From a virus, in IMG/VR virus record IMGVR_UViG_3300037070_003446, positions 1-36,835 of that record: a DNA stretch of 36,835 bases. One strand, given 5' to 3'. Position numbers and translations under genes: made by a program. Under the pieces are notes generated by a model that did no database searches, was not told where the DNA came from, and saw only the letters and a list, made by a program, of their open reading frames with translations. This document shows, piece by piece, positions 5,911-36,832 of this stretch (position 1 is the first letter of the stretch; the number at the start of each line of letters is the position of its first letter).

Positions 5911-5933
5911 GCTGTGCTACCCTCCTGTTACAA

Positions 5934-5942
5934 GGCATTATA
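5934..5942 (-). promoter_or_regulatory. Extended -10 promoter for the leftward zinc-motif gene
   Basis: On the minus strand the sequence is TTTGGTATAAT: a perfect -10 hexamer (5942-5937) with a TG extension at 5945-5943. No good -35 is seen. Transcription would start near 5930, about 20 nt upstream of ATG 5910, leaving room for the AGGAGGG ribosome site. The feature span is approximate. Confidence 0.6.
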
Positions 5943-5949
5943 CCAAACG

Positions 5950-5987
5950 AAAAGGCAGCTTGTTATCACAAGAGTTGACAAACTGCC
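5950..5987 (-). terminator. Intrinsic terminator after the tRNA-like gene
   Basis: On the minus strand GGCAGTTTGT (5987-5978) pairs with ACAAGCTGCC (5963-5954) with one G-T pair and a 14-nt loop, followed by TTTT (5953-5950). It lies ten bases beyond the 3' end of the tRNA-like gene, so that gene looks like a self-contained transcription unit. It could also act as an operator upstream of the 5942 promoter. Confidence 0.6.
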
Positions 5988-5996
5988 TAATCGTTA

Positions 5997-6074
5997 GGGG
6001 CAGGGGAGAATCGAACTCCCATCCTGTTACTCGTTCTGCACTTTCACTGCACGACCAATCATGCTACTTGCCCC
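5997..6074 (-). tRNA. tRNA-like gene, anticodon uncertain (GAA Phe or GCA Cys)
   Basis: Read leftward, the element has an acceptor stem GGGGCA/TGCCCC, a perfect T-arm (GGGAG, loop TTCGATT, CTCCC) and a D-loop with GG in ATTGGTC. The best anticodon stem (GTGCA/TGCAG) presents the loop GTGAAAG, with U33 and anticodon GAA (6045-6043). This reading leaves a short D-arm and a 15-nt variable region. Spacing from the 5' end would fit GCA better, but then the anticodon stem does not pair. CCA is not encoded and the discriminator base would be T. It may be a divergent phage tRNA, a tRNA-like RNA, or an attachment-site relic. It has its own promoter and terminator. Confidence 0.5.
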
Positions 6075-6080
6075 ACAGAA

Positions 6081-6089
6081 ATTATACCA
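6081..6089 (-). promoter_or_regulatory. Extended -10 promoter of the tRNA-like gene
   Basis: The minus strand reads GTGGTATAAT, with TATAAT at 6086-6081 and the TG extension at 6089-6087. Seven bases downstream is G6074, the first base of the predicted acceptor stem. Transcription may therefore start at the mature 5' end, giving a leader-free RNA. Confidence 0.65.
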
Positions 6090-6306
6090 CAATCTTATGT
6101 TGCCTAATCTGTAGCCAGTGACACAAACAATCCAGGCACAATCCTCAGTCCACAATCTCTACGCCTCAACGAGTTAGACAGGAAATAGCCCATAAAGTAA
6201 AGGATAAATAGCCTGTTCTGATAACCCGTATATCGCCGCAAGGTGTAATTTCGTGCCTAAAATAGCCCTCTTTCTATGAAAATGTAGCCATAAGTGTAGC
6301 CAAACA
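6087..6306. other. Non-coding region with repeated TGTAGCCA words, possible attP region
   Basis: No convincing gene lies between the tRNA-like unit and the HNH promoter. The stretch is AT-richer than its surroundings and contains TGTAGCCA three times (6110-6117, 6283-6290, 6295-6302), the last two 12 bp apart. Direct repeats of this size near a tyrosine integrase gene can be arm-type integrase sites, and a tRNA-like sequence next to them is a common attachment core. Both points are inference, and no host sequence is available to define the core. Confidence 0.35.
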
Positions 6307-6315
6307 TGGTATAAT
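6307..6315 (+). promoter_or_regulatory. Extended -10 promoter before HNH gene
   Basis: TGGTATAAT, a consensus -10 at 6310-6315 with TG extension at 6307-6308, predicts a start near 6322. The same nine-base word occurs in the two leftward promoters at 5942 and 6089. No convincing -35 is seen. The RNA would carry a 63-nt leader with a strong hairpin before the ribosome site at 6372. Confidence 0.6.
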
Positions 6316-6327
6316 AGGCATATGAAA

Positions 6328-6352
6328 CCGGGCGGCGCGGTAACGCCCCCGG
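6328..6352 (+). promoter_or_regulatory. GC-rich leader hairpin before HNH gene
   Basis: CCGGG (6328-6332) pairs with CCCGG (6348-6352) and GGCG (6334-6337) with CGCC (6344-6347), leaving one bulged C and the loop CGGTAA. The nine-pair hairpin lies 20 nt upstream of GGAGG (6372-6376). It is markedly more GC-rich than its surroundings. It could stabilise the RNA or control translation. I could not match it to a known riboswitch or ribozyme class. Confidence 0.45.
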
Positions 6353-6384
6353 CGCGGCCAAACCCTTTAGTGGAGGATTTGACA

Positions 6385-6921
6385 ATGGAGATTATACAAC
6401 TCGCCTTTGACTTTAACAACCCCGTCGAAACAAAGTTCTGGGCGAAGGTAGACAAGGTTTCTAGTCCTCATGGCTGTTGGTTGTGGACTGGTAACAAGCC
6501 TAAGGGATATGGTCTATTCAGAGTTAAGGGGCGGACGCTTATGGCGCACCGCTTCTCGTGGTCCCTTGTGCATGGCCCTATTCCAAAGGGACTAAATGTG
6601 TGCCATGACTGCCCCGGCGGTGATAACCCTTCGTGTGTCAATCATGCTCACTTGTGGCTCGGTACTCCAAAAGAAAATACTCAGGATATGCTCCGTAAGG
6701 GCAGGGCTGCAACAGGTGAGCGAAGCGGTCCATACTTGTCACGTGAGCGCCGATACGGTGAAGGCAACTCCCAGGCACGTCTAACTGAGGCTCAGGTGCG
6801 GGAGATCAGACAGAGGTATGCGAATGGTGAAAGGCAAGGTGATATTGCGCGGGACTATCCCGTTTGCAAAGTTACCATCAATGTCATAGTCAACCGTCAG
6901 CGTTGGAAGCATCTCGAATAG
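6385..6921 (+). CDS. HNH endonuclease with C-terminal HTH (homing type)
   Basis: The 178-residue product has the HNH_3-type core: GCWLWTG near residue 30, AHRFSW, then CHDCPGGDNPSCVNHAHLWLGT with the catalytic His and zinc-binding Cys residues. A C-terminal helix-turn-helix (RLTEAQVREIRQRY) presumably recognises DNA. Free-standing enzymes like this are usually homing endonucleases that copy themselves into phage genomes. ATG 6385 follows GGAGG at eight bases and is preferred to ATG 6322, which falls at the predicted transcription start. It sits between the putative attachment region and the convergent integrase gene and is probably a mobile insertion. It is related in layout to the gene at 9394. 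Confidence 0.88.
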   Translation: MEIIQLAFDFNNPVETKFWAKVDKVSSPHGCWLWTGNKPKGYGLFRVKGRTLMAHRFSWSLVHGPIPKGLNVCHDCPGGDNPSCVNHAHLWLGTPKENTQDMLRKGRAATGERSGPYLSRERRYGEGNSQARLTEAQVREIRQRYANGERQGDIARDYPVCKVTINVIVNRQRWKHLE

Positions 6922-7009: not shown

Positions 7010-8146
7010 TCAAGCATACATAGTCGCCAGAATATCCACAGCCTGCTCCTCCAGAACGGGTAGGAGATGTGCATAGGATTGCAGCGTAGTAGTTATATTG
7101 GCATGGCCTAAAATGCGAGAGACTACGTGTACCTGGATGCCACCAGCGAGCATCAAAGTTGCTGCGGTGTGTCGGGTATCATGGAATCTTATCCGAGGCA
7201 GCCCCGCCCTCTTTAGCACTACCGCGAAATACAACAGGATGTGCTCTCGGTTGATAGGCGCTCCATACTTCGTAGTGAACACATAGCCCGTATCTTTCCA
7301 CTTTACCTCTTCAGCCACATGCTCCCAATACTGCATGTCACGCCTCATGCGAAGGGCGGTGACTATCTGAGGTGTGAGGCGTAGGGTGCGATTAGAGGCG
7401 CTTGTCTTTACCTCAACCCGTACCTGTTTGCCCTCAATACGCTGGAGAGAGCCGCTAACCTGCATGGTGGCTTTGTCCAGGTCTACATCCTGCCAGCGCA
7501 GAGCCAGCAGTTCACCCTTCCTCAAACCGAGCGTCAAGGCTATCAGGTAGAGAGCATAGAACCTGTCTTCCCGCACAGCGTCAAGCAGAGCGCGCGCCTG
7601 CTCCTGGTCGAGGCAATGCATTTCGGTTCGTGGCACGCGGATACCGCCTGCTAACCGCCCCACGTTGCGGGGGATGTAGCCACGCTGCACGGCTGCCTCA
7701 AGGCACATTATGATTGTCACTCTGTATTGCTTGACTGTGGCAGGTGCTAGTCCCTTCTTGAGTTCGCTGGCTTGAAACCGCTCTATATCTTCGGCTGTAA
7801 GGCTCTGTAAGGGCACATGGCCTAATGAGGGAAGGATGTGCTTATGCACCCACACTGAGCGGTTAGCGAACGTTGTGGGCTTTACGCGGGGTTGTACGGT
7901 GTGGACGAACCAATGCTCAAGGAACTGCCCGAATGTCTGCTTATCCGTGCGCTGTTCTAGTGTGCCGGTGCGGTGTTGTTCTTGAGCGGCGCGTAGCTTG
8001 TCACGCACGGCTGCCTTCGTCTTAGCGTAAAGGACTTTGCGCCTGCGTTTGCCGTTAGCGTCGGTGTAGGAGAGAGACGCCACAAAGAGGCCATCAGACG
8101 CGCGTTGAAAAATGCTCCCATCTCCTGGAGATCGTCTCTTCGTCAC
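7010..8146 (-). CDS. int: Tyrosine-type site-specific integrase
   Basis: The 378-residue product is a full-length phage integrase. It has an N-terminal arm-binding-like domain (about residues 1-60), a SAM-like core-binding domain (about 70-160) and a C-terminal catalytic domain. The catalytic residues are visible: Arg209 in GLRKGE, Lys257 in VEVKTSA, His322 and Arg325 in HDTRH, His348 in LGHAN, and the nucleophile Tyr358. It would recombine attP with attB to establish lysogeny. It starts with GTG 8146, two bases after the stop of the upstream membrane protein gene, without a clear ribosome site, so translation is probably coupled. The gene is transcribed with the repressor and should be expressed in lysogens. 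Confidence 0.96.
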   Translation of the reverse strand: MTKRRSPGDGSIFQRASDGLFVASLSYTDANGKRRRKVLYAKTKAAVRDKLRAAQEQHRTGTLEQRTDKQTFGQFLEHWFVHTVQPRVKPTTFANRSVWVHKHILPSLGHVPLQSLTAEDIERFQASELKKGLAPATVKQYRVTIIMCLEAAVQRGYIPRNVGRLAGGIRVPRTEMHCLDQEQARALLDAVREDRFYALYLIALTLGLRKGELLALRWQDVDLDKATMQVSGSLQRIEGKQVRVEVKTSASNRTLRLTPQIVTALRMRRDMQYWEHVAEEVKWKDTGYVFTTKYGAPINREHILLYFAVVLKRAGLPRIRFHDTRHTAATLMLAGGIQVHVVSRILGHANITTTLQSYAHLLPVLEEQAVDILATMYA

Positions 8147-8670: not shown

Positions 8671-9045
8671 CTAGCCTAGTTTCGTCTCAATGTCCAATAG
8701 CTTTGCCAGTCGCACGAGCATTGCCTGGTCACTCTTGGGCAGGTTCGCCACGACTTCGGCGAAGGCTTCCGCGTCGCCTGCTTTGAAGTGTCTTGCAAAG
8801 CGTTGCCAGAGTTCGGCATGGTAGTTAGTGACCTCTTCTACTCCAGTCGGTGCTAGCTCTGTAATAGCCACACCCAGAGCATCGGCCAGCTTGCGCCGGT
8901 TCTCTAGCTTGGGTACGCGCTTTCCCGCTTCTATCAGGCTGATATAGCCACTATCGAAGCCTGCCTTTTCCGCTAACTGGCCCTGCGACCAGCCACGCGC
9001 CTCCCTCAATTCCTTCACACGTTCCGCAAGCGTAGCCCCTACCAT
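8671..9045 (-). CDS. cI-like lysogenic repressor (XRE HTH)
   Basis: The 124-residue product begins with an XRE helix-turn-helix: RVKELREARGWSQGQLAEKAG, then DSGYISLIEAGKRVPKLENRRKLADALGV. A helical C-terminal region may mediate dimerisation. There is no LexA-type peptidase domain, so induction would not use RecA self-cleavage. I chose ATG 9045 because TTGCAA (9081-9076), a 16-bp spacer and TATATT (9059-9054) place the transcript start within two bases of it. That gives a leaderless mRNA like lambda cI from PRM. A TTG at 9063 would lie inside the promoter. It diverges from the Cro-like gene across an operator region. Confidence 0.88.
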   Translation of the reverse strand: MVGATLAERVKELREARGWSQGQLAEKAGFDSGYISLIEAGKRVPKLENRRKLADALGVAITELAPTGVEEVTNYHAELWQRFARHFKAGDAEAFAEVVANLPKSDQAMLVRLAKLLDIETKLG

Positions 9046-9053
9046 GTAAGTAG

Positions 9054-9081
9054 AATATAACAATTGTTAGCTCCCTTGCAA
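9054..9081 (-). promoter_or_regulatory. Repressor promoter (PRM-like)
   Basis: Minus-strand -35 TTGCAA (9081-9076), 16-bp spacer, -10 TATATT (9059-9054). The predicted start is near 9047-9046, at the repressor ATG 9045. A perfect 12-bp palindrome lies between the two hexamers, so the repressor or the Cro-like protein could switch this promoter directly. Confidence 0.65.
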
Positions 9082-13154: not shown

Positions 13155-13208
13155 AGCCCCCACTCCCCCGCTTATCGGCTCGTGCCGGTGGGCGGGGGAG
13201 TGGGGGCT
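13155..13208. repeat. Perfect 17-bp inverted repeat hairpin without T tract
   Basis: The arm AGCCCCCACTCCCCCGC (13155-13171) is exactly complementary to 13192-13208. The 20-nt spacer holds a second stem (CGGC/GCCG with loop TCGT), so the whole element folds into an almost continuous rod. There is no T run after it, which argues against a classical terminator. It lies 14 bases after the SSB-like stop and just before the methyltransferase gene. It may stabilise the upstream mRNA, reduce read-through, or be extruded as a cruciform. Confidence 0.85.
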
Positions 13209-13269: not shown

Positions 13270-13923
13270 ATGATTGACATAGACCTCAGAAACCAGGACG
13301 TAAGCGACATGCTGGCAAGCCTGCCTGATGGCTGTGCGCCTCTGGTACATGCTGACCCGCCCTGGGATTATGAGAACTGGTCAGACACCAAGAACGGGGC
13401 AGCACGCGCCTATTACGACGGCCTGACTATGGAGGAGATTGCAGCACACATGAACGTAGCGTATCGGATAGCCGCTCCTGATAGCTACCTCGTGGTGTGG
13501 TGTACGTGGCCGAAGCTCATTGAGTGGGCGAGCTATAACGCGCAACTCGGAAAGTGGGTGCATATCACGGGAGCGAGTTGGCACAAGTCTAACGGGCTAG
13601 GCGTGGGCTTCCATGTTCGTGGTGATAGTGAGCCAATCCTGATTTACCGCAAGGGGCATCCTTTGCCACTCACGCACTTTAGCAACAGTTGGAAGACGGC
13701 GCGTATCGGGCATTCAGAGAAGCCACAAACGATACTGCGCGACGTTGTAGAGTGGGCCGTGCCCGTTGGTGGGCTGGTCGTGGACTTGTACGCAGGGGCA
13801 TCCGCTTCCCTCGCCATAGCGTGCCGCAGTTTGGGCAGGCAGTACGTAGGGGCAGAGATTGACGCGGCTCGACACGCTACTGCTTTGTTACGTTTGTCAC
13901 AACAGGAAATGGTGTTCGTATGA
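13270..13923 (+). CDS. DNA adenine methyltransferase, MT-A70-like
   Basis: The 217-residue product carries the N6-adenine catalytic motif DPPW at residues 29-32 and, near the C-terminus, the AdoMet-binding motif VVDLYAGASASLAIACRSLG followed by YVGAEID. A conserved HSEKPQTILRDVV helix precedes it. The DPPW-first order matches beta-class/MT-A70-like enzymes. No restriction enzyme gene is adjacent, so it is an orphan enzyme probably protecting phage DNA or marking it for regulation. ATG 13270 is preferred because the following sequence matches a typical family start and AGGA precedes it. ATG 13219 is the alternative. Confidence 0.88.
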   Translation: MIDIDLRNQDVSDMLASLPDGCAPLVHADPPWDYENWSDTKNGAARAYYDGLTMEEIAAHMNVAYRIAAPDSYLVVWCTWPKLIEWASYNAQLGKWVHITGASWHKSNGLGVGFHVRGDSEPILIYRKGHPLPLTHFSNSWKTARIGHSEKPQTILRDVVEWAVPVGGLVVDLYAGASASLAIACRSLGRQYVGAEIDAARHATALLRLSQQEMVFV

Positions 13924-14087
13924 GTAACAAACCATGCAGCCTGTGTGGAGGCCCGTTACTCGGAAAGCCCATGTATGACGACGGCTGCCATAACAACCTG
14001 GAGACTTGCATAACGCACCTCAAGAAGCGAATAGCCGAGCTGGAGAAGCAACTGGCAAAGAAGGGCAGCATAGCACCACCCCGCTAG
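13920..14087 (+). CDS. Small zinc-finger plus coiled-coil protein
   Basis: Direct translation gives 55 residues starting MSNKPCSLCGGPLL. A CxxC knuckle (residues 6-9) and two further cysteines (23 and 30) form a likely zinc site, followed by a basic coiled coil THLKKRIAELEKQLAKK. ATG overlaps the methyltransferase TGA as ATGA, so the two are translationally coupled. Function unknown. A DNA- or protein-binding accessory is plausible. Confidence 0.7.
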   Translation: MSNKPCSLCGGPLLGKPMYDDGCHNNLETCITHLKKRIAELEKQLAKKGSIAPPR

Positions 14088-36057: not shown

Positions 36058-36761
36058 TGCCCCCATACGAACGCACACGCACACCAGGCTCCATAGACAC
36101 CGCAATCGTGGCTTCGGTGCAACTCCCTCTCGCGCTGCCTAATTGTCAGGGTTGGTATGAGGCGCATTCTATCTCGGGCCTTGCGGATAACACAGCCGTT
36201 ACCTCGTGGCCTGACTTATCAGGCAACGGTGCGAACTTTGGGCAACTCACAGCCGGAGCTAAACCGAAGTACCGCACAGCCAGGCAGAACGGCTACTCAG
36301 GGATGGAGTTTGACGCGACTGACGACACCATGACAGGCACGCTCGCACTTTCCACAAGCACCTACTCAATCTACATAGTGTACGCCTCCAACGCAGGAGC
36401 AGGGGGTGGGCACCGTGTCTTACAAGGAGCGTCTAACAACTGGCTGATAGGGCCATATAACGGCTCTTTCAACTTCTACAATGGCGGCTTTATCACAGGC
36501 CCCACCTCGTCAGCAGGCTTGTATAAGTGTCAGCATGTGGTAGCGGACGGCTCAGGCGCGGAGATGTTCATCAACAATGCCAGCCAGGGCACGAACGGCA
36601 ACACGACAGCCCCCGGCACTGTGGTGTTAGGCCCGGGGGGTGCGTTCGGAGAGATTGCAGACAGCACGGTGCTTGAGTGGGCGGCTTACTCGAGCAAGCA
36701 CAGCACAGCCGATCAACTGCGGATGTGGCTGTACCTGAGGGACAAGTACGCGATTACATGA
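36057..36761 (+). CDS. Laminin-G / concanavalin-like tail protein
   Basis: The 234-residue product shows the LamG-like jelly-roll pattern: WYEAHSISGLADNTAVTSWPDLSGNG, MEFDATDDTMTG, STYSIYIVY, INNASQGTNGN and VLEWAAYSSKHSTADQLRMWLYLRDKY. These domains, frequent in tail and adhesion proteins, bind glycans or other surface molecules. It overlaps the preceding gene by one base and reaches the junction of the circular map; its last 55 bases are repeated at 1-55. Confidence 0.82.
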   Translation: MPPYERTRTPGSIDTAIVASVQLPLALPNCQGWYEAHSISGLADNTAVTSWPDLSGNGANFGQLTAGAKPKYRTARQNGYSGMEFDATDDTMTGTLALSTSTYSIYIVYASNAGAGGGHRVLQGASNNWLIGPYNGSFNFYNGGFITGPTSSAGLYKCQHVVADGSGAEMFINNASQGTNGNTTAPGTVVLGPGGAFGEIADSTVLEWAAYSSKHSTADQLRMWLYLRDKYAIT

Positions 36762-36832
36762 GCAATGAAGAATGGACCCGCTACTCACCACCATCATAAC
36801 AGGGGCGATAGGCGGGATGTCTGTCACGGTAG
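36707..36832. repeat. Terminal direct repeat (copy of 1-126)
   Basis: Right-hand copy of the 126-bp terminal repeat. Beyond it only three bases remain (CCC instead of TGG), so divergence there rests on very little sequence and may be an end-of-contig error. Confidence 0.9.

Follow-up and report, generated by a model that had tools for sequence, protein, structure and literature searches.

The window, by which is meant the whole stretch of DNA analysed (36,835 nt; IMG/VR virus record IMGVR_UViG_3300037070_003446, positions 1 to 36,835), carries a phage genome. Self-comparison revealed that the first 126 bases of the record are repeated exactly at 36707-36832, implying that the genome is circularly complete at about 36.7 kb, and its gene content (terminase, endolysin, holin, tyrosine integrase, repressor-type HTH, primase and two HNH proteins) points to a temperate phage. 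A 54-bp imperfect palindrome (85%) was also detected by self-BLAST at 13155-13208. On the minus strand lie the gene for the repressor-type HTH protein (8671-9063), the tyrosine integrase (7010-8146; Pfam PF00589 at 9e-28, phrog_1), a 79-nt tRNA-like RNA (5996-6074) whose 5' end is 936 bp from the integrase stop, and a 97-aa gene (5910-5617) led by the Shine-Dalgarno (SD) sequence AGGAGG and an ATG. An HNH endonuclease gene (6322-6921; PF13392, phrog_1872) lies between the integrase and the tRNA-like RNA on the plus strand.

The tRNA-like RNA, delimited by the Rfam tRNA model (RF00005), folding and pattern scans, reads GGGGCAAGTAGCATGATTGGTCGTGCAGTGAAAGTGCAGAACGAGTAACAGGATGGGAGTTCGATTCTCCCCTGCCCCT from G6074 and is composed of an acceptor stem, a D-arm, a 27-nt middle, a T-arm and a discriminator T (T5996), with no encoded CCA. 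Seven base pairs form the acceptor (G6074-A6069 with T6002-C5997, plus G6067-C6003), leaving A6068 bulged, and T8 and A9 (6066-6065) stand just ahead of the D-stem. In the Rfam alignment the D-arm is GCAT-GATTGGTC-GTGC (6049-6064, minus strand), in which the 4-bp stem (6064-6061 with 6052-6049, GCAT/GTGC) has A12-U23 where the usual GCTC/GAGC has U12-A23, and the loop GATTGGTC keeps G18 and G19. The T-arm, GGGAG-TTCGATT-CTCCC (6020-6004, minus strand), is perfect, as had been predicted, and is the only match in the window at up to three mismatches; its loop retains TTC, and the bases of the elbow are kept. A15 and U48 may form a Levitt pair, while the U8-A14 contact is lost (position 14 is G) and A21 is replaced by C.

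The 27-nt middle (6022-6048, minus strand), defined by folding and a stem scan, stands in place of the anticodon arm, and the scan of 6048-6022 found no way to pair a stem of 4 or 5 bp around a 7-base loop. The interval from the D-stem to U48 is 27 bases; a standard tRNA has 22 there, five fewer. The original prediction had placed the anomaly in a short D-arm and a long variable region; the D-arm is in fact a normal 4-bp one, and the fault lies in this middle without an anticodon stem.

An extended -10 promoter, TGTGGTATAAT (6091-6081, minus strand), was recognised upstream from its sequence. It is a full extended -10 element followed by a spacer of six bases (TTCTGT) and then by G6074, and this spacing, usual for a transcription start, places the predicted +1 on the first base of the acceptor, with T at -1. 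No match to a -35 element was found upstream of TGTGGTATAAT. The motif TGGTATAAT occurs three times in the window (at 5937 and 6081 on the minus strand and at 6307 on the plus strand) against 0.15 expected; one copy (5937-5945, minus strand) precedes the AGGAGG and ATG of the 97-aa gene, and the plus-strand copy (6307-6315) precedes the HNH gene, so the motif appears to be used as a promoter by this phage. With the latter copy, transcription would begin on the A of the HNH frame's first ATG (6322; motif to ATG, 6307-6322), and a better, SD-led start at 6385 would leave a 63-nt GC-rich leader. By our own arithmetic, one of three such -10 elements would come to lie within a base of the right position by chance with a probability of about 1e-4. 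A TATAAT-like box at the same spacing precedes only 4 of 416 viral tRNAs, with no peak at that spacing.

Downstream, folding predicts an intrinsic terminator (5945-5988, minus strand) consisting of an 11-bp hairpin (5988-5953; -16.4 kcal/mol, z -4.0) followed by TTTCGTTT. A simple terminator scan did not list this hairpin, its loop being longer than the scan allows. At the level of sequence, the original observation of a self-contained tRNA-like unit is borne out on the minus strand: promoter, tRNA upper half and terminator lie in register, the -10 spacing predicts a start on G6074, and a terminator hairpin does follow the 3' end, although it begins 8 bases past the discriminator and not ten. 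Two further resemblances were observed near the element. The ribosome-site region of the 97-aa gene (5917-5931, GTAACAGGAGGGTAG) matches the middle and T-stem of the tRNA-like RNA (6016-6030, GTAACAGGATGGGAG) at 13 of 15 positions, and a pair of direct repeats around the element (5984-5997 and 6101-6114) was set aside as no better than eight other repeat families in 1.5 kb.

Dedicated tRNA models support the resemblance in part. Searched over 191 nt, RF00005 scores the element at 28.2 bits (E 3e-4), just below its gathering cut-off of 29; a search of the full 36,835 nt at E 10, which applies stricter filters, does not report the element. Among the traits of the family, acceptor and T-arm pairing with a TTCRA loop is present, and a 5-bp anticodon arm with a 7-nt loop is absent. 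ARAGORN called neither a tRNA nor a tmRNA at the element, and Rfam found no tmRNA there; an 11-codon frame inside it (MIGRAVKVQNE) was weighed as a possible tmRNA-like tag and rejected. The element does not have the fold and tag frame of a tmRNA. Relatives were sought by exact 24-mer in the viral and GTDB contigs searched, by blastn against phages, through the neighbouring 97-aa protein and through the records of terminase relatives, and none was found. The fold, which was to stand or fall with tRNA models and homologues, is therefore backed by Rfam just under its cut-off, but neither by ARAGORN nor by a homologue in the collections searched. As far as anatomy goes, these sequence features give good support to a non-decoding RNA of tRNA origin that has its own promoter and terminator, and its transcription probably begins directly at the first mature base, as predicted from the promoter spacing.

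Related shapes occur in other phages. A terminase relative (G013, 46% identity) carries a tRNA-like element with acceptor, D-arm and T-arm and no anticodon arm (L079, also L133, at about 1468-1524); the same genome has a second odd tRNA-like (L020, about 13847-13952), roughly 106 nt long, whose middle is strange and which is directly followed by a terminator-like hairpin. Two shortened-tRNA patterns matched 53 and 36 viral contigs, and filtering for at least 6 of 7 acceptor pairs and at least 4 of 5 T-stem pairs left 59 distinct armless sequences (L121-L173 and L208-L243), 46 of which have 7-11 nt replacing the arm. When 35 of the 59 were aligned, 97.9% of pairs proved intact and covariation scored 0.84, compared with 0.19 for shuffled controls, the signal being strong in the acceptor and T-stem. 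This shows a real fold, although differing parent tRNAs may be the source of the covariation, and the D- and T-loops are fixed by the search patterns, which demand them intact. A model of these elements (R1, 58 positions) covers only 6042-5996 of the window element, at 17.2 bits and not end to end, so that the element shares the trait of the set (upper half kept, anticodon arm absent) without being a sequence member of it. The same model also matches ordinary tRNAs, which renders genome counts made with it meaningless. A scan of 398 Bacillota genomes with the armless pattern found no match; for want of a per-base rate on viral contigs, no enrichment in phages is claimed from this. In several armless elements (for example L128 and L167) an ATG follows within a few bases of the 3' end, and L128 and L130 are set apart by a compensatory swap, A-U to U-A, at the first acceptor pair. 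A literature search covering few subscription papers returned nothing on anticodon-less phage tRNA-likes.

One armless element, GGTTCTTTAGCTCAGTTGGTAGCTAACCGTTCGGTCGCTGGTTCGAGTCCAGCAAGAACC, recurs almost in full, with identities of 96.7-100%, in 36 phage records of GenBank, including Lactococcus phages bIL309, bIL286, TP712, P335, ul36, CAP and D2544; some phages are entered twice, and six of the 36 records are titled 'Bacteriophage sp.'. It is unannotated and nearly invariant across these records, and lies in bIL309 at L265:1503-1563 (also L266, L268 and L271-L278). In a flank comparison that left out ul36, proPhi1 and D6890, whose D-arm or loop departs from the word used in the search, the element is identical in most phages and nearly so in the others, while many pairs of flanks align at no more than 50-70%, which suggests that an armless form can be kept. 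Five relatives have a 74-nt form, annotated in D6890 as tRNA-Met, where a full tRNA occupies the site. Where neighbours are annotated, the Lactococcus element sits between the lysin and the repressor or integrase, a placement much like that in the window.

The reading that we tentatively favour, with decay close behind, is that the window RNA is a tRNA mimic under selection. It draws on a promoter whose spacing places the predicted start exactly on the first base of the acceptor, an arrangement rare among the 416 viral tRNAs, on the terminator just beyond the 3' end, and on the retention of all upper-half pairs, including A12-U23 and A15-U48, together with G18, G19 and the TTC of the T-loop, while the anticodon stem is wholly absent. 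Further weight comes from the tRNA-likes of other phages that lost only the anticodon arm, one of them in the terminase relative, and from the Lactococcus element, conserved despite divergent flanks in a similar gene neighbourhood. Counting against it are the lack of a homologue in the collections searched, the failure of R1 to align end to end, the possible origin of the armless covariation in parent tRNAs, and G14, C21 and the acceptor bulge, which also fit decay.

That the element is instead a decaying phage tRNA, now functionless, is only somewhat less probable: a tRNA with its own promoter and terminator would have had its anticodon arm destroyed by a single indel or replacement. The bulged A6068, the lost U8-A14 contact, the sub-threshold Rfam score and the missing homologue all suit such a history. 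So does a streptococcal phage element (L223), which is armless where Streptococcus phage Javan565 has a normal tRNA-Phe and which indicates that arms are lost from normal tRNAs by deletion. The intact upper-half pairs, promoter and terminator are harder to reconcile with it, and the middle is 5 nt longer than normal rather than shorter.

An origin in site-specific integration appears improbable, although partial tRNA genes created by integration are well known (PMC9897764), for which reason it is retained as a rival: the element would then be either the phage attachment site (attP) or what is left of an integration event in a host tRNA gene. A tyrosine integrase lies 936 bp away, and integrase relatives, none more than 41% identical to the window integrase, adjoin tRNA genes in nine cases (L002, L089-L094, L096 and L099). 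In those nine the tRNA is encoded on the strand opposite the integrase, roughly 110-450 bp beyond where the integrase match ends; the other relatives show no tRNA in the DNA examined next to the integrase. The window element does not share the placement of a tRNA-type attP (opposite strand, within about 450 bp of the integrase end), being on the same strand and past the HNH gene, and no plus-strand T-arm was found near the window integrase. Its T-arm and acceptor match Chloroflexota tRNAs at 92-96% over 24-25 nt, but no exact 24-mer is shared with the GTDB contigs searched, and a 3' fragment would suffice for attachment, leaving a 5' half with its own promoter unneeded. Judged by strand and distance, the tRNA-like RNA is thus probably not attP. 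The T-arm matches in Chloroflexota are the ends of ordinary tRNA-Arg, tRNA-Leu and tmRNA and so name no host.

A working tRNA of odd form is still less probable. It would use an alternative hairpin, TGCA-GTGAAAG-TGCA (6051-6037), which displays a Phe anticodon as U33-GAA-A37, leaves the D-arm open and creates a variable region of 16 nt. This fold is marginally the minimum-energy one (-26.3 kcal/mol against -25.6 with the regular D-stem), the two being of about equal stability; however, the hairpin takes up half of the D-stem and so competes with it, its 4-bp stem has mismatches at both flanks, and ARAGORN makes no call. The original view that the RNA may be a mimic rather than a normal tRNA is supported in so far as a mimic is at least as likely as a working tRNA. 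Chance resemblance is very improbable: a loose scan (acceptor of at least 6 pairs, D-arm with GG, perfect T-arm) gives about 0.09 matches per shuffled window (0.087 strand-hits) against one in the window, and mostly true tRNAs in 975 kb of related viral DNA, and the coincidence of such a cloverleaf with a promoter and terminator in exact register, at an Rfam E of 3e-4 in 191 nt, makes accident very hard to credit.

Should the mimic reading hold, RNA polymerase would start at or near G6074 from the extended -10 promoter and stop at the hairpin terminator about 120-130 bases on. The RNA would fold into the upper half of a tRNA, with the acceptor stacked on the T-arm and putative D-loop/T-loop contacts at the elbow; decoding would be impossible for want of an anticodon arm. 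The mimic may then show the surface of a tRNA to a host factor whose recognition depends on the acceptor or elbow. That the window RNA belongs functionally to an unrecognised, recurrent phage class of armless upper-half mimics, here born with a mature 5' end and independent of RNase P, is a bolder extension that we consider rather unlikely. Phage tRNAs are usually explained by codon supply and, more lately, by replacement of host tRNAs cut by defence systems. A different role would have to be sought for non-decoding RNAs with an acceptor and elbow, for instance as ligands of a nuclease, a synthetase, the CCA-adding enzyme or a defence sensor; such RNAs escape tRNA finders in which an anticodon arm is required. 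The element of the Lactococcus P335 group makes the idea testable in well-handled laboratory phages.

Among known systems, the tRNA-like domain of tmRNA is a tRNA upper half without an anticodon arm, as is the window element; unlike tmRNA, the latter has no tag frame ending in LAA, draws no tmRNA call from ARAGORN or Rfam, and has a D-arm that is a paired stem. Phage-encoded tRNAs, which include the anti-defence tRNAs of T5-like phages (PMC11555353), are likewise small phage RNA genes with acceptor, D- and T-arms, but the window element lacks the anticodon arm and anticodon and carries a promoter of its own, from which transcription is predicted to start at the first mature base. In this last respect it resembles the 5'-leaderless tRNAs of Nanoarchaeum equitans (PMC10941002), although those are archaeal, full and experimentally shown, whereas the start in the window is predicted from spacing. 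The armless viral set likewise keeps the acceptor, D- and T-arms and has lost the anticodon arm; most of its members have a 7-11 nt linker and a total length of 56-61 nt, compared with 27 nt and 79 nt in the window element.
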